Below, one piece after another: positions 26,258 through 63,991 of a DNA stretch of 64,000 bases; position 1 is the stretch's first letter; each line of letters opens with the position of its first letter. The notes under the pieces were generated by a model that did not search any database, was not told the DNA's origin, and saw only the letters and a list, made by a program, of their open reading frames with translations. Origin of the DNA: Hyalangium ruber (GTDB lineage: Bacteria; Myxococcota; Myxococcia; Myxococcales; Myxococcaceae); assembly GCF_034259325.1 (NCBI RefSeq), contig NZ_JAXIVS010000004.1, positions 682,001-746,000 of the forward strand. The letters run 5' to 3'. Position numbers and translations under genes: made by a program.

Positions 26258-34006
<7,749 letters not shown>

Positions 34007-34033
34007 GAGATGAACCTCGGCGAAGGTGAAAGC

Positions 34034-34053
34034 CGCGCCCTGCGAAGGGCGCG
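34034..34053 (-). promoter_or_regulatory. perfect hairpin in the leader of the poly-HAMP kinase gene
   Basis: CGCGCCCT and AGGGCGCG flank a four-base GCGA loop, 28 bases upstream of the TTG start codon on the minus strand. In RNA this is an 8-bp GC stem with a tetraloop. Any role in limiting translation is speculative. Confidence 0.35.
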
Positions 34054-34171
34054 CGAACTCCAGGGTGCCTTCTTCTAGAAGAGTTCGGGGACTTGTCGAC
34101 TGTCGAGCGAAGCCGCCCCAGTCAACGGTTCAGAACTCAACCACATTCGTCCCGGGCCTACTCCTAACGCC

Positions 34172-52255: not shown

Positions 52256-53839
52256 GTGGAGATGCATGTCGTCATCGGTTTGATGGTCGCGGCCATCGCC
52301 GTGGCCATTGCCGCCAAGCGCGTGCGCATCCCCTACAACGTGGCGCTGGTGGGAGGCGGCCTCATCATCTCGGTGGGCGGCCTGCTGCCGGGGGTGCCAC
52401 CGCTGAGCCCAGAGGTGGTGTTCATCGTCTGCCTTCCAGCGCTGTTGTTCGAGGGCGGCATCACCGCGGACATTGGCAACGTGCGCGCCAACGCGGTGCC
52501 CATCGCCGTGCTGTCCTCGCTGGGCGTGGTGCTGGCCATCGGCGCCACGGGCGCGGCGCTGCATGGGCTGCTGAACCTGGGGTGGGGCCCGGCGTTGCTC
52601 CTGGGGGCCATCCTCTCCGTCACCGACACCGTCTCCATCCTCTATGCCTTCCGCCGGGCGCCGGTGCCGCAGCGCCTGAGCGGCATCATGCAGGGCGAGA
52701 GCCTCTTCAATGACGGCACCGCGCTGGTGGCCTACGCCGCCATCGCCGCCGTGGTGGCCGGGGGGCAGACGCCCTCGCTGGTGATGCTGACGGGCAAGGT
52801 GCTGGCCGCCAGCATCATGGGCGCCGTCATCGGCCTGGTGCTGGCGCTGGTGGGCAGCTTCATCATCCGCCGCACCGAGGATCCGCTGGCGGAGATCATG
52901 GCCACCACGGCGCTGGCCTTCTCCTCCTTCGTGCTGGCCGAGCAGTTCCACTTCTCGGGCGCCATCGCCGCCGTCACCGCGGGCCTGGCGGTGGGGGTGA
53001 CGCTGCGGCGGGCGGTGTCCCCGCAGAGCCAGGTGGCCATCCACACCTTCTGGGAGTACGCCGCCTTCGGGGTGAACACCTTCCTCTTCCTGTCGGTGGG
53101 GCTCACCACGCGGCCGGAGGTGCTGCTGTCATACCTGCCGGAGACGGGCATCGCGTTCGCCTGCGTGCTGGTGGGCCGGGCGGTGGCCATCTACATCCCC
53201 TTCCTGCTGCTGCGCTGGCTGCGCCCGGCGGCCTCCATTCCGCTGCGCTGGCAGCACGTGTTCCTCATCGGCAACATCAAGGGCGCGCTCTCCATCGGCC
53301 TGGTGCTGGGCCTGCCCGCGAACACGCCCTCGCGCGAATTGCTGGTGGCCGTCGCCTTCGGCGTCACCTTCTTCTCGCTGGTGGGCCAGGGGCTGCTGTT
53401 GAGCAAGGCGCTGCGGCGCATGGGCCTCATCGAGGAGGACCCGGTGGCGCTGCACGTGGCCGAGCACCAGGGGCGCCTCATCGCCAGCCGGGCGGCGCAC
53501 CACGAGCTGGAGGACCTGCACGAGCAGGGGCTGGTGCCCCGGGCCGCCTACGAGCACCTGCGCAGCGACTACCAGGTGAACATCGCCCGCGCGGAGCGGG
53601 AGCTGCGGCGGCTCAATGAGCAGCACCTGGCGCAGGGAGCCCGGAGCCTGATCGCCGTGCGCCGCCGCCTCATCGACGCGGAGCGCACGGCGCTGCAGGG
53701 AGCGCGGCGCAACGGGCTCATCCCCGACGCCATGGCGGAGGAGATGCTGGCGCGGTTGGATCAGCGCACGCTGGAGCTGGAGCACGCACTGCACGGCACG
53801 GAAGGCCGAGAGAAGGACGGAGGGAGAAAGAGCGCATGA
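52256..53839 (+). CDS. CPA1-family Na+/H+ antiporter
   Basis: A 527-residue protein. About twelve hydrophobic helices span residues 5-390 and contain the CPA1 signatures LPALLFEGGI, GAILSVTDTVSI and the ion-binding pair in GESLFNDGTALV, plus G-N-I-K-G-A-L-S-I near helix 11. The last 130 residues are a soluble, charged helical tail (AAHHELEDLHEQGLVPRAAYEHL), as in NhaP-type exchangers with regulatory tails. Start GTG at 52256; an ATG two codons later is equally possible. Its stop overlaps the next start in ATGA. Confidence 0.92.
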   Translation: MEMHVVIGLMVAAIAVAIAAKRVRIPYNVALVGGGLIISVGGLLPGVPPLSPEVVFIVCLPALLFEGGITADIGNVRANAVPIAVLSSLGVVLAIGATGAALHGLLNLGWGPALLLGAILSVTDTVSILYAFRRAPVPQRLSGIMQGESLFNDGTALVAYAAIAAVVAGGQTPSLVMLTGKVLAASIMGAVIGLVLALVGSFIIRRTEDPLAEIMATTALAFSSFVLAEQFHFSGAIAAVTAGLAVGVTLRRAVSPQSQVAIHTFWEYAAFGVNTFLFLSVGLTTRPEVLLSYLPETGIAFACVLVGRAVAIYIPFLLLRWLRPAASIPLRWQHVFLIGNIKGALSIGLVLGLPANTPSRELLVAVAFGVTFFSLVGQGLLLSKALRRMGLIEEDPVALHVAEHQGRLIASRAAHHELEDLHEQGLVPRAAYEHLRSDYQVNIARAERELRRLNEQHLAQGARSLIAVRRRLIDAERTALQGARRNGLIPDAMAEEMLARLDQRTLELEHALHGTEGREKDGGRKSA

Positions 53840-54969
53840 GGATCGTCATCGCTGGAGGAGGCCGGGTGGGCTCGGTGCTGGCGGCGCGGCTGGTGGCCGA
53901 GCAGCACACCGTCACGGTCATCGAGCGAGACGCGACCATCTGCACCCGGCTCTTCGAGGAGGTGGGCGTGGTGACGGTGTGCGGGGACGCGACGAGCACC
54001 CAGGTATTGGAGGCGGCGGGCATCGCCGCGGCGGACGTGGCGGCGGGCGTGCTGGCGCGAGACGCGGAGAACCTGGCCTTCGCCATGCTGGTGCGCAGCA
54101 TGTCGCCCGCGCGGGTGATGGTGCGCATGTTGGACAACACCTACCGCGAGGCGTACCGGATGGCGGGGGTGAAGGACCTGGTGGCCGAGGCGGACGTGGT
54201 GGTGGCGAAGATGACGACGGCCATCGACTTCCCGCAGGTGGCCGGCTCGCTGCCGCTGGCCAGCAGCGACACGCTGCTCTTCGAGGTGGGCATCGGCCCT
54301 CGGGCGCTGGTGTCGGGCAAGACGGTGGCCCAGGTGCGCGGGATTGAGGGCTTCCCGAAGGAGAGCCTCTTCATCGCCGTGGTGGACTCGGAGGGGCAGA
54401 CGGTGGTTCCGGACGGCAGCACCGTGCTGCGCTCCGGCCACACCGTCATCCTCGTGGCGCGCCGCTCCCAGCTCGCGCAGGCGGTGGAGCTGCTCACCGC
54501 CGAGCCGACCTCGAGCACCGGCTTGACGCCGCTCACGCAGGCGCTGCGCAAGGTGGACTTCCTGGCGCCGCTGAGCGACGCGGAGCTGGCGACGGCGGCG
54601 CGGGGCGCGGAGTTCCTCCAGCGGCCGGCGGGCTCGGAGATTTTCAAGAAGGGCGACCCGGGAGAGACGTTCTTCGTGGTGCTGGCGGGCGAGGTGCGGC
54701 TCCTCGGAGACGGCGGGCAGTTGGTGAGCACGGTGGGCCCGGGCGGCTTCTTCGGCGAGCTGGCGCTGCTCACGGGCGAGCCGCGCATGGCCACGGCGGT
54801 GGCCTCCAGCCCGTGTGAGCTGGCGGCGGTGGGGCGCGAGGACTTCCGAGGGGTGGTGATGGGCAACCCCACGGTGGCGCTGGAGATGAGCCGCATCCTC
54901 GGCCAGCGGCTCTCGCGCGCTCAGGGCGCCAGCCTCCCCATCAAGCGCAAGGGCCTCTTCGGACGCTGA
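53836..54969 (+). CDS. TrkA-type (RCK) regulatory protein with cyclic-nucleotide-binding domain
   Basis: A 377-residue protein. The TrkA_N Rossmann domain has RIVIAGGGRVGSVLA and the acidic VIERD; TrkA_C spans about 145-215. The cyclic-nucleotide-binding domain (about 235-355) has a phosphate-binding-cassette-like FFGELALLTGEPRMATAVA and RPAGSEIFKKGDPGETFFVVLAGEV. It overlaps the antiporter stop by four bases, so it is very probably the cytosolic gate or sensor of that exchanger, answering to NAD(H) or other nucleotides and possibly cAMP or cGMP. The cassette keeps the Glu and the Arg that usually grip the cyclic nucleotide. Confidence 0.9.
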   Translation: MRIVIAGGGRVGSVLAARLVAEQHTVTVIERDATICTRLFEEVGVVTVCGDATSTQVLEAAGIAAADVAAGVLARDAENLAFAMLVRSMSPARVMVRMLDNTYREAYRMAGVKDLVAEADVVVAKMTTAIDFPQVAGSLPLASSDTLLFEVGIGPRALVSGKTVAQVRGIEGFPKESLFIAVVDSEGQTVVPDGSTVLRSGHTVILVARRSQLAQAVELLTAEPTSSTGLTPLTQALRKVDFLAPLSDAELATAARGAEFLQRPAGSEIFKKGDPGETFFVVLAGEVRLLGDGGQLVSTVGPGGFFGELALLTGEPRMATAVASSPCELAAVGREDFRGVVMGNPTVALEMSRILGQRLSRAQGASLPIKRKGLFGR

Positions 54970-54972
54970 CCC

Positions 54973-55605
54973 ATGCTCAAGCTCTACCAGTTCCACCCCT
55001 CGGGCAATTGCTACAAGGTCCGCTTGCTGCTGCACCAGCTCGGCATTCCCTTCGAGGTGGTGGAGCTGGACCTGAAGGCCGGCGCGGCGCGCGGCGCGGA
55101 CTTCAAGGCGAAGAACCCCATCGGCCGGGTGCCCACGCTGGAGCTGTCGCCGGGCACCTTCCTGGCCGAGTCCAACGCCATCCTCTGGTACTTCGCGGAG
55201 GGCACGCCCTTCATCCCCACCGACAAGCTGGAGCGGGCGCGCATGCTCCAGTGGATGTTCTTCGAGCAGTACAGCCACGAGCCCTACATCGCCGTGGCGC
55301 GGGCGTGGATCTCCTTCTTCGGAGTCCCCGCCGGCAAGGAGCGCGAGCTCGAGGAGCGCACCCAGAAGGGCTACGCGGCGCTGGACGTGATGGAGGGCGA
55401 GCTGAAGCAGCGCCCCTTCTTCGCGGGAGAGCGCTACAGCCTGGCGGACATCGCGCTGTACGCCTACACGCACGTGGCGGACGAGGGGCGCTTCGAGCTG
55501 AGCCGCTACCCCGCCATCCGTGCCTGGTTCACACGGGTCCAGGCGCAGCCCGGACACCTGACCATCACGGCACCATCAGGAACGTGGCGTGAGCCGTCGC
55601 GATGA
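54973..55605 (+). CDS. glutathione S-transferase family protein
   Basis: A 210-residue protein. The thioredoxin-like N-domain has LYQFHPSGNCYKVRLLLHQLGIPFE, cis-Pro in GRVPTLEL and ESNAILWYFA; the helical C-domain has GERYSLADIALYAYTH (the N-capping motif). Likely cytoplasmic detoxification or glutathione-dependent chemistry. It starts three bases after the TrkA-type gene. Its last 41 bases overlap the 3' end of the opposite-strand thioesterase gene, which is unusual but leaves both with family-typical ends. Confidence 0.9.
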   Translation: MLKLYQFHPSGNCYKVRLLLHQLGIPFEVVELDLKAGAARGADFKAKNPIGRVPTLELSPGTFLAESNAILWYFAEGTPFIPTDKLERARMLQWMFFEQYSHEPYIAVARAWISFFGVPAGKERELEERTQKGYAALDVMEGELKQRPFFAGERYSLADIALYAYTHVADEGRFELSRYPAIRAWFTRVQAQPGHLTITAPSGTWREPSR

Positions 55606-56005
55606 GGCGGGAGCGCTCCTGCTGCCAGGCCTCGACGCGCACGTTGGCCACGCGGCGCCCCTGACGGGTGACGAAGCCCTGGGCGAAGGTGTCCTGAAGC
55701 CCCCCGGCGCGCAGGAACTCCGTGGTGAGGCTGATGAGCCGGGGCATGCGCTCGGTGTCCTCCTGGAGGAGCAGCTCGAAGAGCGCGGACGACTCCAGCA
55801 GCGCGCCCAGGGCGCCACCGTGCAGGGATTGGAAGCCCACGAGCTCGGGCGCGTACGTCATCCGGCAGCGCGCATGGCCCTCGGCGGCCTCCAGGCCAAT
55901 GCGGAACAACCGCGCGGAGGGGATGAGCGCGGTGAGCGGGCCATAGTCGTGCCCCTGGCGCGCCTGACGCAGCAGCTCGACGAACGAGGCGGAGGAGGAG
56001 GCCAT
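55565..56005 (-). CDS. PaaI-type hotdog-fold thioesterase, copy A
   Basis: A 146-residue acyl-CoA thioesterase-like protein. The hotdog core helix region reads LHGGALGALLESSALFELL and is followed by ISLTTEFLRAG and VANVRVEAWQQERSRLIATAHATFLMV. It starts three bases after the stop of copy B, so the two are one unit and may form a mixed oligomer. Its 3' end overlaps the GST gene by 41 bases. The acyl substrate is unknown; the neighbouring acyl-CoA ligase suggests a shared pathway. Confidence 0.8.
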   Translation of the reverse strand: MASSSASFVELLRQARQGHDYGPLTALIPSARLFRIGLEAAEGHARCRMTYAPELVGFQSLHGGALGALLESSALFELLLQEDTERMPRLISLTTEFLRAGGLQDTFAQGFVTRQGRRVANVRVEAWQQERSRLIATAHATFLMVP

Positions 56006-56008
56006 GGC

Positions 56009-56422
56009 TCACTCCTCCACGAGCATGTAGGTGGCCTGCATGGTGGCCACGGCGTCGGCCGCGTCCCCGTCATGCACGAGCCCTCGCACGAATGCCACCG
56101 AGGGTGTCAGCTCGTAACACTCCGCGCGTGCGGCGAGGTCCTTGCCGGAGCGCGAGGGGCGCAGGTGGTCGATGCGCAGCTCCAGGGTGACGATGCGCCG
56201 CAGCCGCGCCATCTTCATGCACGCGGCGCTGCCGCACGTGACGTCCACCAGCGTGGTGATGGCCCCTCCATGAACCGCCCCCGTCTCGGCGTCTCCCACG
56301 AGCGCTGGGGCATACGGCAACAGGCACGTCGCCTCCCCCGGCGCGGTGGCCACCAGCCGCAGGCCCAGCGCTCGGTTGAGGGGTGTGCGCTCTTCAACGA
56401 AGGCGCGGAGCATTTCCACCAT
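56009..56422 (-). CDS. PaaI-type hotdog-fold thioesterase, copy B
   Basis: A 137-residue protein with VHGGAITTLVDVTCGSAACM (the helical hotdog signature), LELRIDHLRPSRSGKDL and FVRGLVHDG, typical of PaaI/YdiI-like thioesterases. The ATG at 56422 is chosen because GGGAAG lies six bases upstream; a TTG nine bases earlier is less likely. It is divergent from the methyltransferase gene across a 68-base, AT-rich gap with two palindromes. Confidence 0.82.
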   Translation of the reverse strand: MVEMLRAFVEERTPLNRALGLRLVATAPGEATCLLPYAPALVGDAETGAVHGGAITTLVDVTCGSAACMKMARLRRIVTLELRIDHLRPSRSGKDLAARAECYELTPSVAFVRGLVHDGDAADAVATMQATYMLVEE

Positions 56423-56436
56423 TCTTCCCAATAATA

Positions 56437-56461
56437 CAGTGATACACTGATTTCGCGCGAA
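56437..56461. promoter_or_regulatory. two palindromes in the divergent promoter region
   Basis: CAGTG-ATA-CACTG (56437-56449) and the perfect 10-bp palindrome TTCGCGCGAA (56452-56461) stand side by side in the 68-base gap between the thioesterase and methyltransferase starts. The region is much richer in A+T than its surroundings. They look like binding sites for a dimeric repressor such as a TetR or GntR type; none is encoded beside them. Confidence 0.55.
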
Positions 56462-56490
56462 CTTCGCGGAAGTGCCAGCAGGGAGCCGGA

Positions 56491-57477
56491 ATGCCTGATT
56501 TTGACTGGCCTAAAGACTTTCACCGAATTCCCGATGAGGACTGGACAGACGCCCCGCTGGATCCGCTGGGGCAGCGCTACGACTCGATGGCGCGGCACCT
56601 CTGGTACAGGAACCTGGAGCTGACAGTCGAGCAACTCGCGGAAGCGCTAAAGCCTGGGCAGCTATTGATTGATTATTCCGGAGGCACCGGAATCCTGGCG
56701 CGCCAACTGCTTCAGCGGATTGCAGGAATTGGTACGGTGATGGTGGATGCCTCGCCGCGGTTCCTGCGGGTAGCGCTGGAACACTTCCGTGACGAACCGC
56801 GCGTGGCCTTCCGGCTGCTGCGCTACCTCGAGGGCGAGCGGCGCCTCCAGGGGCTGGACGAGGTGCTGGGCCCGGCGTTCCTGGCGCGCAAGGCGGATGC
56901 GCTGGTCTCCACCAACGCGGTCCACCTCTACCCGGACCTGCCGGGGACGTTCCAGGCGTGGGCGCGCTCGGTGCGGCCCGGCGGGAAGGTCTTCGTCCAG
57001 TCCGGAGACATCCGCAATCCGGAGGGCAAGCCGGGTGAGTGGTTGATCAGCCAGGTGGTGGAGAAGGTGCGCGAGGTGGCCAAGGAGGTGGCGGCCGAGG
57101 ACCCGCGCTATGCGCCCTACCGCGCCGTGCTGGAGGACCGCGCGAAGATGGCGGCCTACGACGCGCTCTGGCGCAAGGTGTTCCTGCCCATCCGCCCGGT
57201 GTCGGAGTACCAGGAGGCGCTGACGCAGGCAGGCTTCACCGTCAAAGACATCCTCACGCGCACCGTGGATGTGGGCGTGCTCGAGTGGTACGAGGCGACG
57301 AGTGTCTATCCAGACCTGCTCGGCTGGGTGGGCGGCTCTCCGAAGGTGGACAAGCGCCTGCCCACGGCGGCCGAGGTGCAGGATCGACTGGATTTGCTCA
57401 AGCAATCCTTTCTCAAACTTTTCAAAGGCCGGGATATCTATCAAAGCACCTGGACATATTTCGTCGCAGAGAGATGA
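56491..57477 (+). CDS. class I SAM-dependent methyltransferase
   Basis: A 328-residue protein. The SAM-binding motif I is LLIDYSGGTGILARQLL (about residue 58-74), the acidic loop is VMVDASPRFL, and a post-I stretch DALVSTNAVHLYPDLPGTF is followed by SVRPGGKVFVQSGDIRNPEGK. The C-terminal 130 residues form an extra helical domain (EVQDRLDLLKQSFLKLFKGRDIY in parts). The first and last 100 bases of the gene are richer in A+T than the middle. It is the first gene of a plus-strand unit with acyl-CoA ligase and flavoprotein, so an acyl or lipid-like substrate is plausible but unproven. Confidence 0.85.
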   Translation: MPDFDWPKDFHRIPDEDWTDAPLDPLGQRYDSMARHLWYRNLELTVEQLAEALKPGQLLIDYSGGTGILARQLLQRIAGIGTVMVDASPRFLRVALEHFRDEPRVAFRLLRYLEGERRLQGLDEVLGPAFLARKADALVSTNAVHLYPDLPGTFQAWARSVRPGGKVFVQSGDIRNPEGKPGEWLISQVVEKVREVAKEVAAEDPRYAPYRAVLEDRAKMAAYDALWRKVFLPIRPVSEYQEALTQAGFTVKDILTRTVDVGVLEWYEATSVYPDLLGWVGGSPKVDKRLPTAAEVQDRLDLLKQSFLKLFKGRDIYQSTWTYFVAER

Positions 57478-57492
57478 CGGCGGGGGTCATCC

Positions 57493-59022
57493 ATGCACAT
57501 CGGTCAATTGCTGACACGCGCGGCGCAGCGCCACCCGACGAACACGGCCTGGTACGACGGAGCGCGTCCGGTGCTCTACACAGAGGTCGAACTGCGCGTC
57601 ACGTGCCTGGCCGATGCCCTGCGCCAACTGGGGCTGAAGACGGGAGATCGCGTGGGGATGATGCTGCCCAACAGCCCCCAGGCGCTGGAGGTGATGTTCG
57701 CGACGATGAAGGCGGGGCTGGTCATCGTCCCGATGAACATCCGGCTCCACCCGGAGGAGCACGCCACCATCCTCGATGACGCCGGGTGCTCGCTGCTGAT
57801 CTACGCGGCGGAGTTCACCCAAGCGCTGGCCTCCATCCGGGACCGCCTGCCCACGCTAAAGACATACGTGGTGGTGGGCGACTCCCCCACGGCGGACAAA
57901 CGCTATGAGGAATTGCTGGCCATGGGCTCTCCGGTGCTGGGATTCCAGCCGGGCCCGGAGGACCTGGCCTGGCTTTTCTATACCTCGGGGACGACGGGCA
58001 AGCCCAAGGGGGTGATGCTGACGCACCGCAACCTCCTGACGCTGGTCAGCATCAACCTGATCGATCTCAACACCCCGTCGCACCAGGATGTGCTGCTGCA
58101 CGCGCTGGCGATCAGCTTCGCGGGCGGGTTCTTCATGCTCCACCACGTGGCGCGGGCGGTGACGCACGTCTTCCTGCCCCGGTTCGATCCGGCCACGTTC
58201 TTCCAGTTGGTGGAGAAGCACAAGGTGACGACGGTGGCGCTGGTGCCGACGATGATCAGCATGCTGGTGCGCTCACCGGCGCGCACGGCCCACAACCTGT
58301 CGAGCCTGCACACCGTCTTCTATGGCGGAGCGCCGCTGCACGCCGAGCGGCTGCGGGAGGCGCTGGAGGCCTTTGGCCCCATCTTCCTGCAGAGCTACGG
58401 GCTGGGCGAGTCGCCGCTGACGCTCACGGTACTGGGCAAAGACGAGCACACGGGGTTTCGCGCGCAGTCGGCGGGCCGGGTCAGCACGCTGGTCTCGCTC
58501 CGCATCCAGGATGATGACTGGAACCCCGTGTCGATGGGCCTGGAGGGGGAGATCGCCGTGCGCAGCGATCTGGTGATGGCGGGGTACTGGAACCGTCCGG
58601 AGCAAACGGCCGACGTGCTCAAGGACGGCTGGTTCCGCACGGGTGACATCGGGTACCTGGACCAGGACGGCTACCTCTTCATCAGCGACCGCAAGAAGGA
58701 CCTCATCAAGAGCGGCGGGGCGACGGTGTCTCCGCGCGAAGTGGAGGAGGTCATCCACCTGCACCCGGCGGTGCAGGAGGTGGCGGTCATCGGCGTGCCG
58801 GACGAGACATGGGGCGAGGCCATCAAGGCGTTGGTGGTGCTGCGGCCGAACGCGGTCACCACGGAGAAGGAGCTCATCGCCTTCTGCAAGGATCGGCTGG
58901 CCTCGTTCAAGAAGCCCCGCTCGGTGGACTTCGTGCCGGACCTGCCCAAGAGCGCCAACAACAAGGTGCTGCGGCGCGAGCTGCGAGAGCGCTACTGGCA
59001 GGGGCGCGCCCGGAAGGTTTGA
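57493..59022 (+). CDS. AMP-dependent acyl-CoA synthetase/ligase
   Basis: A 509-residue adenylate-forming enzyme. The P-loop-like motif YTSGTTGKPKG lies near residue 170, YGLGESPLTL near 300, and the A8 hinge region RTGDIGYLDQDGYLFISDRKKDLIKSGG near 385-412. The catalytic Lys is in SANNKVLRREL close to the C-terminus. All motifs are intact. The layout matches medium/long-chain or aromatic acyl-CoA ligases rather than NRPS A-domains, as there is no carrier domain. It starts 15 bases after the methyltransferase gene and is probably co-transcribed with it. Confidence 0.92.
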   Translation: MHIGQLLTRAAQRHPTNTAWYDGARPVLYTEVELRVTCLADALRQLGLKTGDRVGMMLPNSPQALEVMFATMKAGLVIVPMNIRLHPEEHATILDDAGCSLLIYAAEFTQALASIRDRLPTLKTYVVVGDSPTADKRYEELLAMGSPVLGFQPGPEDLAWLFYTSGTTGKPKGVMLTHRNLLTLVSINLIDLNTPSHQDVLLHALAISFAGGFFMLHHVARAVTHVFLPRFDPATFFQLVEKHKVTTVALVPTMISMLVRSPARTAHNLSSLHTVFYGGAPLHAERLREALEAFGPIFLQSYGLGESPLTLTVLGKDEHTGFRAQSAGRVSTLVSLRIQDDDWNPVSMGLEGEIAVRSDLVMAGYWNRPEQTADVLKDGWFRTGDIGYLDQDGYLFISDRKKDLIKSGGATVSPREVEEVIHLHPAVQEVAVIGVPDETWGEAIKALVVLRPNAVTTEKELIAFCKDRLASFKKPRSVDFVPDLPKSANNKVLRRELRERYWQGRARKV

Positions 59023-59067
59023 CGCGAGATTCTGGTTCCAAGCCGTATCCACTCCAAGGGGACACTT

Positions 59068-60042
59068 ATGCTCTCGACGCGCTTCACGGAACTCGTTGGA
59101 TGTCGTGTGCCGATTCAGCAGGCGGCGATGGGAGGCACCGCCACGCCGAAGCTGGCGGCGGCGGTCTCGGACGCGGGCGGGCTGGGCATGGTGGCGGCGG
59201 TGATGATGTCCGCCGAGGACCTCGCCCGGGAGCTGGATGGGCTTCGCGCGCGAACGAAGGCCCCCTTTGGGGTGAGCTTCATCGTGCCCTTCCTGCATGA
59301 GCGAGAGCTGGTGGAGGTAGTGGCCTCGCGGGCGAAGGTGGTCGAGTTCTTCTTCGGTACGCCGGATCGCTCCCTGGTGGACACGGTCCACGCGGGGGGC
59401 GCGCTGGCATGCTGGCAGGTGGGCTCGAAGGAAGACGCGGTGGCGGCGGAGGCGGTGGGCTGTGACCTGGTCGTGGTGCAGGGGGTGGAGGCCGGTGGCC
59501 ACGTGGCCGGGAAGATTGGCCTCTTCCCACTGCTCGACGAGGTGCTGGAGGTGGTGAAGATTCCCGTCATCGCGGCGGGAGGGATCGGCTCGGGCCGAAC
59601 GATGGCGGCCGCGCTGGCGGCGGGGGCCTCGGCGGTGCGCATGGGCACCCGCTTCGTGGTGGCGGAGGAGGCGGACACCCACGCGGGCTATGCGGAGAAG
59701 CTGATCGCGGCCCGTGGGCGGGACACGGTGATTACCAAGGCGTTCCACGTGATGTGGCCGGACACGCCGCACCGGGTGCTGCGCTCGGCGCTCGAGGCGG
59801 CGACCGCGTTCCAGGGAGAAGTAACGGGCGAACTCTTCCTCCATGGAAAGAAGATGCCGCTGCCGCACTGGGCGGTGCCCAACCCGACCCGGCTGACGAC
59901 GGGCAACATCGACGCCATGGCGCTCTACGCGGGCGAGTCGGTGAGCGCGGTGAAGTCCGTGCAGCCCGCCGCGACCATCGTGAAGGAGGTCTCCGAGCAG
60001 GCCGAGAGCCTGCTGCGCCAGTGGGCCTCGCGGCTGAAGTGA
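59068..60042 (+). CDS. nitronate monooxygenase / FabK-like flavoprotein
   Basis: A 324-residue TIM-barrel FMN enzyme. The N-terminus is GCRVPIQQAAMGGTATPKLAAAVSDAGGLGMV, then VVQGVEAGGHVAGK, I-P-V-I-A-A-G-G-I-G-S-G and AAGASAVRMGTRFVVAEE, the flavin phosphate-binding part. This fold covers nitronate monooxygenases, enoyl-ACP reductase II and related oxidoreductases; sequence by eye does not separate them, though the acyl-CoA context favours a lipid-related reaction. It is the last gene of the plus-strand unit and ends one base before the stop of the convergent large gene. Confidence 0.85.
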   Translation: MLSTRFTELVGCRVPIQQAAMGGTATPKLAAAVSDAGGLGMVAAVMMSAEDLARELDGLRARTKAPFGVSFIVPFLHERELVEVVASRAKVVEFFFGTPDRSLVDTVHAGGALACWQVGSKEDAVAAEAVGCDLVVVQGVEAGGHVAGKIGLFPLLDEVLEVVKIPVIAAGGIGSGRTMAAALAAGASAVRMGTRFVVAEEADTHAGYAEKLIAARGRDTVITKAFHVMWPDTPHRVLRSALEAATAFQGEVTGELFLHGKKMPLPHWAVPNPTRLTTGNIDAMALYAGESVSAVKSVQPAATIVKEVSEQAESLLRQWASRLK

Positions 60043-60043
60043 G

Positions 60044-62305
60044 CTACCGGCGCAGGGCCAGGAGCGCCAGGAGCGCGTGCTGGACGGACTCGACCTGGAC
60101 CTCGCTCCGCTCGAGGCTGGAGCGCACCCCACCGAGGGCGTGACGCGGATTGGGCAGGAGCGCGGCTTCGCGCTCCTGGATGACGAGGGTGTCCAGGAAG
60201 GACACGCCCCGGGCGCAGGCGTCGAGGTAGCGCTGCTGGCGGGTGCGATCTCGGAGGCCGGCGGCGAGCTCGGCCCCGGCGGCCAGCGCCTCGAGGTAGA
60301 GCGCGGTGGTGGCGCCTGGAGCGTCGGGCTGGTGGTCGTTGAGGAACGCGCCGGTCGTCTCGGACTGGTAGGTCAGCGCCCAGTCGCAGATCTCGAAGGC
60401 GAGGCGGGCGGCCTCGGCGTCACGGTCGACGTGCCACCACGCCACGGCGGCCTGGGTGAGCCAGGAGACCTGGTCCCAGTGGCGCTTGTAGCGGAAGCGG
60501 TGTCGGTAGAAGCGCCAGGCCTGGGCGAGCTTCGCCGCATCGGCGGCGTGAACGTTCTCCTGCGCGGCGCGGGCGAGCGCGAGCAGGGCCTGGCCGGGCA
60601 TGGAGTCCTGCCACGGGTCGCCATCGGCGGCGGGCTCCAGGTAGCAGGAGAACCGCCCATGGACGCCCATGCGGGACCAGAGGGTGGCGGCGAGCGTCTG
60701 GGCCGTGGCCATGTCCTCGCCGGTCTCGAGCAGCGCGAGGAGGACGAGCGCGACCTGGGAGATCGACGCTCCTTCATCGGCGCGAATCCAGACATGCTCG
60801 GTGTCATCGAACACGAGGTCCGAGGTGAGCGCGGTGAGCAGGGTGCGCGCGCCCTCGCCCAGGGGCGCGGGGCCGAGCTTCCGGTGGGCGCGAGCGAGGG
60901 CCCACGCCTGGTGCGCGAGCCGCGCGGTGTCGAGCCCCTGGTGGATGGCGTCGCTGGAAGGCTCATAGCGAGCCGTCGCGCCCAGGTGGCGCAGGAGGAA
61001 CTTGCACAGCGGAGGGGTCAGCCGCGAGACGCTCTCCCCGAGCGTCTTCGGAGAGGCCTCCACGGGCGGCTTCGACTCGACGCGGGAGGGCTCGGGCGGC
61101 AGGCCCGGCTCGACGACCTCCTGAAGGGAGTAGCGATAGAGCGTGAATGGCTCGGTGGGCAGCAGTCGGGCGTCGAGGGTCCGGGCGTGTTCGAGCTGCT
61201 GCCACGCGTTGGAGATGCCCGGCATGCGGGGAGGCGCCCCGCCCACGAGATACGGCCGCTCACGGCTGCGCACGACGAGGCCATGGCGCTCGGAGTCGAG
61301 CTGAGCAACCTCACATGGCTCGAGCGCGGCGCAGAACGTCACTGAGATGGCGCTGCGCTCCAGGGTGGCCAGCGGCTCGGGACTGACCCGGGTGAGCTGT
61401 CGGGCGGCCAGGAACGCGGCCTGACTCACGGCGATGGCCAGGGCCGGGGCCTTCTCCTCGGGGAAGTTCCAGAACCCATTGTGCGCAAGGAGCTCGTGGG
61501 GTGCGTCCTTCGAGTACACGCTGACCCAGACGCCGCCAGGGCCGGAGTACCGCCCGGCGAGGCGACGGGGAGGACGCAGGAGCTTTCCTGAGCGCAGGGC
61601 CTCGGCGATGACCTGGCGCGCGAGCTCGACGGGTTGGAGCCCCTCCGGCGCCTTCTCGGACGTCACCTCATGCGGAGGAAGAACACGGCCCGGATTGAGC
61701 GCCCGAGGCGCCCCACCTGGCATTCGGGCGGAGAGCTCCTCGGTGTCATAGAGCGCGAACACCGGGATGCCGCGCGAGCGAAGGCGGGAGAAGGCGCCCT
61801 CGTAGCCGGAGCGAACGAGACAGACCCCTCCCTCGACACGAAGTCCTGACTGCTCGAGCCGGGAGACGAAGTCCTCCAGCTCGGACCCCTCGCCGATGGC
61901 GTCGTGGACGAAGAGGACGGGTTGGGCAGGGTCGACCTTGCCCTCGAGGGTCAGGTGCGAGCCTTCTCCGGGCCGGGTGAGGAGCCCGCGATACTTGCCG
62001 CGAGAGAGCATCACACAGGCCTGTAGCAGCGGCAGGCTCCTGGGGCTCGCGGCGACGAGCTGGAGGCCCTCGAAGGCCTCCAACAGGCGCAGGAGACAGC
62101 CCCCGGAGAGCTCGGCGCCACGGGTGGTGAGGGTGACCGCGGGCAGGTCGAGCCGCCACCGGGCGGGGACGCCCTCGGACAGGGCCGGCTCCTCCTGGCG
62201 CATGGCCTCCTTCAGCAGGAGCGAGAGCAGTTGCTCACGCTCGGAAGCATCTGACGCGGCCCGTTTCTGGCGAGAGCGGCCCTGCCGGCCGCGCTGTGCG
62301 GGCAT
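60044..62305 (-). CDS. PRTase-like + AMMECR1-like + alpha/alpha-toroid protein, unknown function
   Basis: About 753 residues. Residues about 45-200 look like a phosphoribosyltransferase fold: QLVAASPRSLPLLQA, then VLFVHDAIGEGSELEDF (129-145) in the place of the PRPP loop. Residues about 225-400 resemble AMMECR1: AISVTFCAALEPCEV, then RHGLVVRS (340-347) and FTLYRYSLQEV; the usual LRGCIG loop is altered to LLAHNGFW. Residues about 425-753 are helical hairpins with W/H-rich motifs (MGVHGRFSCYLEP, HWDQVSWLTQAAVAWWHVD), suggesting an (alpha/alpha) toroid as in six-hairpin enzymes. No signal peptide. GAGAGGGG lies six bases before the ATG at 62305. Domain calls are by pattern; the function is unknown. 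Confidence 0.7.
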   Translation of the reverse strand: MPAQRGRQGRSRQKRAASDASEREQLLSLLLKEAMRQEEPALSEGVPARWRLDLPAVTLTTRGAELSGGCLLRLLEAFEGLQLVAASPRSLPLLQACVMLSRGKYRGLLTRPGEGSHLTLEGKVDPAQPVLFVHDAIGEGSELEDFVSRLEQSGLRVEGGVCLVRSGYEGAFSRLRSRGIPVFALYDTEELSARMPGGAPRALNPGRVLPPHEVTSEKAPEGLQPVELARQVIAEALRSGKLLRPPRRLAGRYSGPGGVWVSVYSKDAPHELLAHNGFWNFPEEKAPALAIAVSQAAFLAARQLTRVSPEPLATLERSAISVTFCAALEPCEVAQLDSERHGLVVRSRERPYLVGGAPPRMPGISNAWQQLEHARTLDARLLPTEPFTLYRYSLQEVVEPGLPPEPSRVESKPPVEASPKTLGESVSRLTPPLCKFLLRHLGATARYEPSSDAIHQGLDTARLAHQAWALARAHRKLGPAPLGEGARTLLTALTSDLVFDDTEHVWIRADEGASISQVALVLLALLETGEDMATAQTLAATLWSRMGVHGRFSCYLEPAADGDPWQDSMPGQALLALARAAQENVHAADAAKLAQAWRFYRHRFRYKRHWDQVSWLTQAAVAWWHVDRDAEAARLAFEICDWALTYQSETTGAFLNDHQPDAPGATTALYLEALAAGAELAAGLRDRTRQQRYLDACARGVSFLDTLVIQEREAALLPNPRHALGGVRSSLERSEVQVESVQHALLALLALRR

Positions 62306-62424
62306 CCTCATCCCCTCTCCATGGGCGGTGGCGACTCCCTCCTCATGGGGAGCGGACCTCCCACCTTACCTCTCGATCACCGCTTCGGCAGAATTTCCGA
62401 CCAGCCCGGGAGAAATGCCCTCCC

Positions 62425-63405
62425 TCATTGCGTCGGGTGTCCCAGGACATCCGTAAGATGGGTGGCTTTCAGGGCTTGGTCAAACCACCGGTCCAAGGTC
62501 GCCATATCCGTGCATGCCAGGATGTGTTGGCGCGCCTCTTCGTCAATCTGCACCCCACGCGCCGCGAGAATCCGAAGCACGTCCTCGGCCCGTCCCTGCT
62601 GACGCCCTTTCTCGATGAGCTTCTCACCCCAGGTCATCATCAGTTCCTCCGTTCGCTGTGTACCAATGACCTCTTTTAACATGCTCACCGCAGCGCCCTG
62701 TGCAGCCTCATTCCCCACCAGCAGCAGGTAGCGGAAGACAACACTCAACTCCTCGGCGCCATTGGGCATGGCCTGCACCTGCGTGAAGAGCGCCGCCCAG
62801 TCCGGTAGCGCTTCCGCCAGTTTCTCGGTGCGTCCGTAGACCAACGCCAGCAGTGCCAACCGAACCAGGGGCGGCCCTGGACGCTTCATCAGCGCCTCCG
62901 CGCGCTCGGCCGTCAGGTCGTCCACCAGGTACTCGAAGCGTGGCACGAGCGCCCTCCACCGCTCGGGCTCCTCGTCCGCCCCTGGCAAGTCGAAGAGCTC
63001 TTCAACCCGGCGAGGAGCGCTCCAGGCCCCATCCGGCCCGTGGTACAGGACCAGGGGAATGATGACCGGCAGGAACCCGCTGCCCGGGTGCTCCTTGCGC
63101 CAGTGCTCCAGCTGGCGCACCACGTAGCGCAGCATGCGCAGGGCCATCCACCGATCCACCGACGACTGGTGTTCCAGCAGGATGTAGAACAGCAGAGGCC
63201 GTCCGCTGGAGAGGCGCGCCGAAAAGAGCAGATCGCTCTGGGTTTCCCGGAGCTCCGGGTCCACCACGGAACCGGGCTCACGCCGCAGACTCTCCCAGTT
63301 CACCTGCGACACCAGATGGGGCGGCAAGGCGGCTCGCAGCTCGGCCGCGGCCCGCTCGGGGTTGCCGAAGGTGAAGCGGACGAAGAGGTCATGAGGCCCA
63401 GGCAT
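62425..63405 (-). CDS. Rpn-family (Transposase_31) PD-(D/E)xK nuclease
   Basis: A 326-residue protein of the RpnA-E/YhgA group. The N-terminal nuclease domain begins PHDLFVRFTFGNPERAAAELRAALP, then has SDLLFSAR (Asp) and LLFYILLEHQSSVD (Glu-x-Gln, the usual variant of the Glu-x-Lys site). The stretch VIIPLVLYHG and a helical C-terminal half with EKLIEKGRQQGRAEDVLRIL follow. Such proteins nick DNA and promote RecA-independent recombination; many occur as multiple copies per genome. It is not flanked by inverted repeats. The gene appears intact. Confidence 0.88.
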   Translation of the reverse strand: MPGPHDLFVRFTFGNPERAAAELRAALPPHLVSQVNWESLRREPGSVVDPELRETQSDLLFSARLSSGRPLLFYILLEHQSSVDRWMALRMLRYVVRQLEHWRKEHPGSGFLPVIIPLVLYHGPDGAWSAPRRVEELFDLPGADEEPERWRALVPRFEYLVDDLTAERAEALMKRPGPPLVRLALLALVYGRTEKLAEALPDWAALFTQVQAMPNGAEELSVVFRYLLLVGNEAAQGAAVSMLKEVIGTQRTEELMMTWGEKLIEKGRQQGRAEDVLRILAARGVQIDEEARQHILACTDMATLDRWFDQALKATHLTDVLGHPTQ

Positions 63406-63580
63406 GCCCCGCAGCGCCGAAGCACAATGCGGGCCAACCTCGCCTCACTCGGAAGCCCCGGGGCACACCCATCCACCGCCAGCGACTCCCGTCCCGCACG
63501 GGAGACAGCCGTCAGCGGCCGCCAAGGGCCAGCGCGAAAGGGGCTACCATCGCCCGCGCTGTCGAACCTGGGAGGAAGTC

Positions 63581-63991
63581 ATGAGTCCGAGCACCCCCAC
63601 CGAAGGACAGGAGCAGAAGATGATCGTCTACACACCGGGCCCCATCCGGGACATCTCGGGGTTCGTCCCGCTGGGCTCCGCCGAGGCCCTGGGAGGCAAG
63701 GTGCTGGAAGGCAAGGTCGAGCTCTTCGGACGCATCGACTTCAGCGCCCGGGGCATGACGGCGGGCCTGTTCATGTCGACCCGGGGCAAGGTGCAGATCC
63801 TCTTCCCCTTCACCGAGCACGCCACCATCCTGGAGGGCGAGGTGACGCTCACCGATGAGTCCGGCCAGAACCACACCTATCGCCCCGGGGACAGCTACTT
63901 CATCAAGCAGGGACAGGTCATCCTCTGGGACGTGAAGAGCGAGCGCGTCATCAAGTCGTTCTTCAACATCGTCGAGAACGGGCCGAAGTAG
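63581..63991 (+). CDS. cupin-domain protein
   Basis: A 136-residue protein with one small cupin barrel: FSARGMTAGLFMSTRGKVQILFPFTEHATILEGEVTLTDESG (read in parts) and YRPGDSYFIKQGQVILWDV. The usual metal-binding motif G(X)5HXH is not kept; only one His (EHAT) is obvious, so catalysis is doubtful and ligand binding is more likely. It resembles the ethanolamine-utilisation EutQ-like or DUF861 cupins. GGAGGAAG precedes the ATG at 63581; the upstream open frame is intergenic. Confidence 0.85.
   Translation: MSPSTPTEGQEQKMIVYTPGPIRDISGFVPLGSAEALGGKVLEGKVELFGRIDFSARGMTAGLFMSTRGKVQILFPFTEHATILEGEVTLTDESGQNHTYRPGDSYFIKQGQVILWDVKSERVIKSFFNIVENGPK

Follow-up and report, generated by a model that had tools for sequence, protein, structure and literature searches.

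The genome of Hyalangium ruber (Myxococcota; Myxococcaceae) contains, in a 64,000-nucleotide stretch of contig NZ_JAXIVS010000004.1 (RefSeq assembly GCF_034259325.1, positions 682,001 to 746,000 of the forward strand; hereafter the window, numbered from its first base), five genes for enzymes of acyl-coenzyme A (CoA) chemistry, which lie back to back over about 4.5 kb between a GST-like gene and an AMMECR1-like gene, as assigned from Pfam and NCBIfam matches. Two hotdog-fold thioesterases are encoded on the minus strand, namely, PaaI_a (56009..56422, 137 amino acids from the ATG at 56422) and PaaI_b (55565..56005, 146 amino acids, 4HBT/PaaI-like); the open reading frame list also gives a TTG start at 56431 for PaaI_a, which would yield 140 amino acids. 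On the plus strand, MT (56491..57477), a class I S-adenosylmethionine (SAM)-dependent methyltransferase of 328 amino acids, is followed by LIG (57493..59022), a class I adenylate-forming acyl-CoA ligase of 509 amino acids with an AMP-binding and a C-terminal domain, and by NMO (59068..60042), an NMO/FabK-family flavoenzyme of 324 amino acids. The MT–LIG and LIG–NMO gaps measure 15 and 45 bases, and the three genes therefore probably form a single transcript. An earlier sequence-only reading had placed two PaaI thioesterases opposite a methyltransferase, an acyl-CoA ligase and an NMO/FabK-like enzyme across 68 bases; the family matches bear out this arrangement, and the divergent intergenic region (56423..56490) separates the ATG at 56422 from the ATG at 56491 by exactly that length. 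We interpret the group, with about even confidence, as an accessory set in which a thioesterase pair common in the family has been joined to an MT-LIG-NMO unit, the whole acting as an acyl-CoA route.

Both thioesterases retain HGG and the acidic residue behind it (VHGGAITTLVD in PaaI_a, LHGGALGALLE in PaaI_b), and we take HGG with a following Asp or Glu in the helix to be the motif of PaaI-like hotdog thioesterases. PaaI_a scored 50.8 bits with TIGR00369, above the cut-off of 36.6 bits; PaaI_b scored 31.5 bits, below that cut-off, and 35.3 bits with Pfam 4HBT, above the 20.6 bits needed there. The pair resembles the PaaI/4HBT hotdog thioesterases (TIGR00369, PF03061) in its 4HBT match and HGG-acid motif, and differs from the PaaI equivalog TIGR02286, for which PaaI_a reached 31.4 bits against a cut-off of 118.9 and PaaI_b was not listed. 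PaaI_a was found in 47 of 76 family genomes at E ≤ 1e-20, its own included, and PaaI_b follows PaaI_a in all 36 other genomes examined among the 46 that carry it (29, plus seven added through 20 wider loci). PaaI_b lacks three residues (GNS or GNP) that all 28 aligned relatives carry, and no terminal branches in the two trees are longer than those of the window's thioesterases (0.53 and 0.46), the trees being unrooted and built from 28 family relatives of the 36 examined, with no outgroup from outside the family. As judged from their sequences, the two proteins appear to belong to a type that the family has, from which they have diverged strongly. HGG is replaced by AGG (His to Ala) in the PaaI_a of 13 of the 28 relatives (loci L039, L040, L042-L044, L046, L048, L052, L054, L056, L057, L059 and L060), and the window keeps HGG.

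No match to MT, LIG or NMO (E ≤ 1e-8) was detected in the 20 wider PaaI loci (7.3-12 kb). Ten frames beside the pair at four loci, chosen by a simple length and codon rule, encode a kinase, two amidohydrolases, two TPR proteins, an AHH nuclease and an AAA protein, and three have no Pfam match.

LIG reached 497.4 bits with NCBIfam PRK06187 (cut-off 476) and contains YTSGTTGKPKG, YGLGE and a C-terminal Lys, which we take to be the core ligase motifs. Near full-length matches relate it to the PRK06187 long-chain fatty-acid-CoA ligases and, in the PDB, to FadD8 (8ivi) and feruloyl-CoA synthetase (8wev); identity to other ligases was at best about 41% among the plasmid matches listed and 40% in the phylum. 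With at most seven candidates scored per genome, 8 of 195 phylum genomes matched LIG at E ≤ 1e-95, its own included and the seven others at 38-40% identity; in the family sample, 7 of 76 genomes matched at 1e-90, its own included (at most 20 candidates scored).

The known counterparts of NMO are the FabK, nitronate monooxygenase and IpdC flavoenzymes, and its catalytic His lies in xEAGGH (motif III, VEAGGH). According to PMC13311796, motif II of nitronate monooxygenases is [VI]SFHF[GN], with its His near the flavin mononucleotide (FMN), and FabK has a Trp two residues after the Met of motif I. In NMO, motif I is the NMO-like MGG with Gly at the place of the FabK Trp, and motif II reads VEFFFG with Phe at the place of the His, such that the enzyme departs from both types. 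NMO might nevertheless act as a genuine nitronate monooxygenase, detoxifying nitronates or nitroalkanes outside acyl-CoA chemistry, a reading with which the NMO-type motif I, the intact VEAGGH, a Pfam NMO score of 185.8 bits (gathering threshold 28 bits), a FabK (TIGR03151) score of 193.5 bits far under the cut-off of 453.1 and a near full-length best PDB match to 3bo9, titled a putative nitroalkan dioxygenase, all agree. We consider it unlikely, however, in view of the exchange of the motif II His for Phe and of the two FMN enoyl-acyl carrier protein reductases that come second in the PDB, 5gvh (similar over nearly the full length) and 5gvj, whose letters in the alignment to NMO are those of 3bo9. 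In the phylum, NMO matched 41 of 195 genomes at E ≤ 1e-35, its own included, with up to 11 candidate places scored per genome, as was also the case for MT. One of these relatives is close (G027, 69% identity) and the next is at 40%. The close relative adjoins a divergent gene that, from its letters, resembles a LysR regulator; MT and LIG are absent from the 19.5-kb stretch around it, and the searches of that genome detected neither MT nor a close LIG.

At E ≤ 1e-8, MT was detected in 1 of 195 phylum genomes, namely, its own. In the family sample, 8 of 76 genomes matched at E ≤ 0.001, its own included; the seven others are weak and partial (best 6.7e-6, 30-41% identity, within residues 13-189). 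A match from a scan with short peptide patterns (L009, 34% over 66 residues) was judged spurious because the long frame at that place runs on the opposite strand and, from its letters, reads as a sugar-phosphate nucleotidyltransferase. Motif I of MT is LLIDYSGGTG. In the PDB, its SAM-binding part is matched best by the C-methyltransferases NovO (E 3e-8) and CouO (1.5e-6), and His120 of CouO aligns with His145 of MT in the phmmer alignment. Pfam and PDB matches end at about residue 173, leaving a long C-terminal part that is unmatched there and that NovO and CouO do not have. An AlphaFold model from the single sequence had a mean predicted local distance difference test score of 44.6. A phage or plasmid source for MT was rejected, as neither plasmids (E ≤ 1e-5) nor viral contigs gave a match and no PHROG family was assigned. 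A defence role was likewise set aside, the PADLOC mad2 match (E 7.9e-9, 32.9 bits, residues 41-197) being taken as the shared SAM-binding fold.

The intergenic region has a guanine-plus-cytosine (GC) content of 0.53 and is rich in palindromes. CAGTG-ATA-CACTG (CAGTGATACACTG, 56437-56449) and TTCGCGCGAA (56452-56461), the two palindromes pointed out earlier, are both present, and two further ones overlap each other, namely, CGCGAA-C-TTCGCG (CGCGAACTTCGCG, 56456-56468) and ACTTC-GCG-GAAGT (ACTTCGCGGAAGT, 56461-56473). The 68 bases hold five palindromes with arms of five bases and gaps of 0-4. When 3195 stretches of this length were sampled from the window, the mean number was 0.50 (five or more in 0.3%), and 5000 shuffles of the region gave a mean of 0.26 (five or more in 0.02%); these tests were picked post hoc with the sites already seen, and the palindromes overlap one another. 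Other measures are less marked: among all stretches of 68 bases in the window, 1.1% contain both palindrome kinds named earlier, as do 0.24% of the shuffles, and CAGTGNNNCACTG with one mismatch allowed has four sites in the window against 3.63 expected, no more than chance would give. Most likely, the palindromes form a local operator through which a putative regulator encoded elsewhere would control one or both of the divergent promoters. No TetR/GntR gene, the linked partner for which a search had been suggested, and no other regulator gene was present among the 11 genes scanned at 52256-63991. They may also be incidental, arising by chance or as promoter or terminator structure without any regulator, and we regard this as quite possible while leaning away from it. 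The excess over shuffles and over other stretches argues against this reading, and several observations are in its favour. The window has many sites resembling TTCGCGCGAA (seven with one mismatch allowed, against 2.81 expected; 3 of 100 shuffles reach seven). On the minus strand, the first palindrome doubles as a weak terminator-like hairpin, and neither exact motif was found in the regions upstream of PaaI_a in 22 relatives. Throughout the 10.77-Mb genome, CAGTGNNNCACTG is rarer than its backward control, with two places, the intergenic region and one other, against eight; its use as the mark of a genome-wide regulon was rejected on this count.

The flanks of the group were compared with relatives at 21 wide GST loci, which came from 20 of the 26 other genomes matching GST at 1e-60 and from G062, reached via the AMMECR1-like gene. 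The left junction is formed by the GST-like gene (54973..55605, plus strand), whose similarity to the GST of relatives extends as far as about residues 199-202, where the 3' end of PaaI_b lies (about 55569); the right junction is formed by the AMMECR1-like gene (60044..62311, minus strand), whose similarity begins just after NMO. The NHX-TrkA-GST order of the window recurred at four of the 21 loci (G052, G062, G065 and G037), and the five genes are absent from all four stretches. In G052, the AMMECR1-like gene stands directly after GST; in G062, it stands after a GST remnant (the last ~42 codons, right behind TrkA); in G065 and G037, a cupin gene is next to GST. Because of this empty site in two relatives and the missing partners elsewhere, and not because of base composition, the simplest reading is a gain of the block in this lineage, and the earlier hint of acquisition is upheld on these grounds. 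We infer that the set was probably acquired as a lineage-specific mosaic, a term chosen because the thioesterase pair and NMO have family relatives, whereas MT and LIG have no close one in the genomes searched.

Acquisition had first been suggested by an A+T-rich region, a description that fits the intergenic region and the start of MT only. The GC content of the group (0.674) is near that of the window (0.687), and 36 of 239 equal-length stretches are lower; low values are confined to the 68 bases and to 56420-56800 (0.58). By gene, GC is 0.645 in MT, the lowest of the five, with 0.814 at third positions, 0.666 in LIG, 0.701 in NMO, 0.703 in PaaI_a and 0.717 in PaaI_b. Acquisition inferred from A+T content was rejected accordingly. 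Terminal repeats or a target-site duplication at the block ends were also rejected, as stretches of 70 bases taken at the two junctions have in common no word longer than 7 bases direct or 8 inverted, lengths that were not set against a chance expectation. Integration at a tRNA gene was rejected because the window contains none. The interval from GST to the cupin gene (55605-63404) is variable among relatives: it is empty in G065 and G037, holds the AMMECR1-like gene in G052, and here holds the five genes, the AMMECR1-like gene and an Rpn-like gene. This last gene (62425-63405), situated 2.4 kb beyond the right end of the block, encodes an Rpn-family nuclease, with matches to Pfam Transposase_31 and to the PHROG category 'integration and excision'. 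Genes seem to have entered or left this interval repeatedly.

The locus could also consist of two unrelated units, a relocated thioesterase operon that clears CoA esters and a separate MT-LIG-NMO pathway, sharing a promoter region only. We hold this to be a real but less probable alternative. It draws on the pair occurring without these partners in the 20 wider loci, with varied neighbours at four of them, and on the nearest NMO relative likewise being without them. On the other side, both units lie between the same flanking genes, which touch in two relatives, and the long terminal branches of both thioesterases, together with the three-residue loop loss in PaaI_b, fit a changed job.

As an acyl-CoA route, the set would most likely have a carboxylic acid activated, modified and released through CoA thioester chemistry. 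LIG would convert the acid to a CoA thioester, MT may methylate the acid or an intermediate, the NMO-fold flavoenzyme may oxidise or reduce near the thioester, as proposed for IpdC downstream of FadD3, and the PaaI-type thioesterases would release the product or clear stalled CoA esters. Beyond the gene family, we infer every one of these steps. In PMC5380842, IpdC is a flavin-containing protein with 30% identity to FabK that, together with IpdF, transformed 5-OH HIC-CoA; in steroid-ring breakdown, then, a flavoprotein resembling FabK has already been seen to work on CoA thioesters after the FadD3 ligase. The chain of activation, methylation, redox change and release in the sequence-only reading appears plausible, with the ligase and thioesterase motifs intact and the catalytic His of NMO kept. 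Its example of a signalling lipid fared less well. A dedicated route to a methylated signalling lipid would suit the presence of a methyltransferase, a ligase and thioesterases together; nothing seen points to such a product, however, and the scan of 11 genes around the group yielded no synthase, carrier protein or regulator, such that we regard this route as highly improbable. Lack of conservation, which had been named in advance as a refuting result, is what the searched genomes of the phylum showed, with MT in 1 of 195 genomes and LIG at 40% at best; it speaks against the signalling-lipid route too, and a conserved functional group is not supported. A bolder idea, improbable on present evidence, is that MT founds an undescribed methyltransferase subfamily acting on a CoA-activated acid and, with LIG and the hybrid-motif flavoenzyme, would make a new methylated acyl product, released by a retuned, co-opted and fast-diverging thioesterase pair under a shared operator.

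Several points weigh against the interpretation of the five genes as an accessory acyl-CoA set gained here. The two sides differ in their source and do not have to work jointly; the five genes may have arrived in more than one event, and the block was possibly deleted in relatives rather than gained in this lineage. The thioesterase pair possibly originated outside the family, given trees without an outgroup, and the rarity of MT, LIG and NMO depends on the bounded number of candidates scored per genome. At two GST loci (G029 and G014), a distant acyl-CoA ligase gene (32% and 31%) is encoded on the opposite strand at a distance of about 2.3 kb from GST, and in G014 a distant NMO gene (30%) is also present, about 4.9 kb away on the other side. 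These loci are without NHX-TrkA neighbours, and we regard the genes as members of widespread families that happen to lie there. NMO might work on its own in nitronate detoxification, and the genome carries a second, higher-scoring NMO-family gene on another contig (C8). Membership of LIG in a broad fatty-acyl ligase subfamily says little about its substrate, and MT has no close relative indicating O-, N- or C-methylation. CouO Arg121, the exchange of which nearly abolished activity in PMC5289526, corresponds to Leu146 in MT, which keeps the His but not the adjacent Arg; because this arginine is not kept, C-methylation of a phenol by MT should not be assumed. A search for sigma-70-like promoters found none in 55500-60200 (0.4 in shuffles), a result that means little in such a genome.

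If the accessory-set interpretation is right, the locus offers a small example of how accessory metabolic gene sets are assembled, with an orphan enzyme unit and a relocated thioesterase pair brought together at one chromosomal site that varies between relatives. All of the enzymes belong to known kinds, and the general interest is therefore modest; new chemistry is most likely to be concealed in MT, whose C-terminal part is unmatched.

Some further features were observed in and around the window. The TrkA-like gene and GST almost adjoin each other in the window, whereas in G052 (L101) some 2.5 kb of additional DNA separates them. The AMMECR1-like protein of the window (755 amino acids) is without about 188 residues after residues 411-415, which are present in G062 (967 amino acids) and G052 (954 amino acids). 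At 27740-34078, very long open frames overlap on both strands, one of 2112 amino acids on the plus strand, without a Pfam match, and one of 2582 amino acids on the minus strand, and this is the lowest-GC part of the window.

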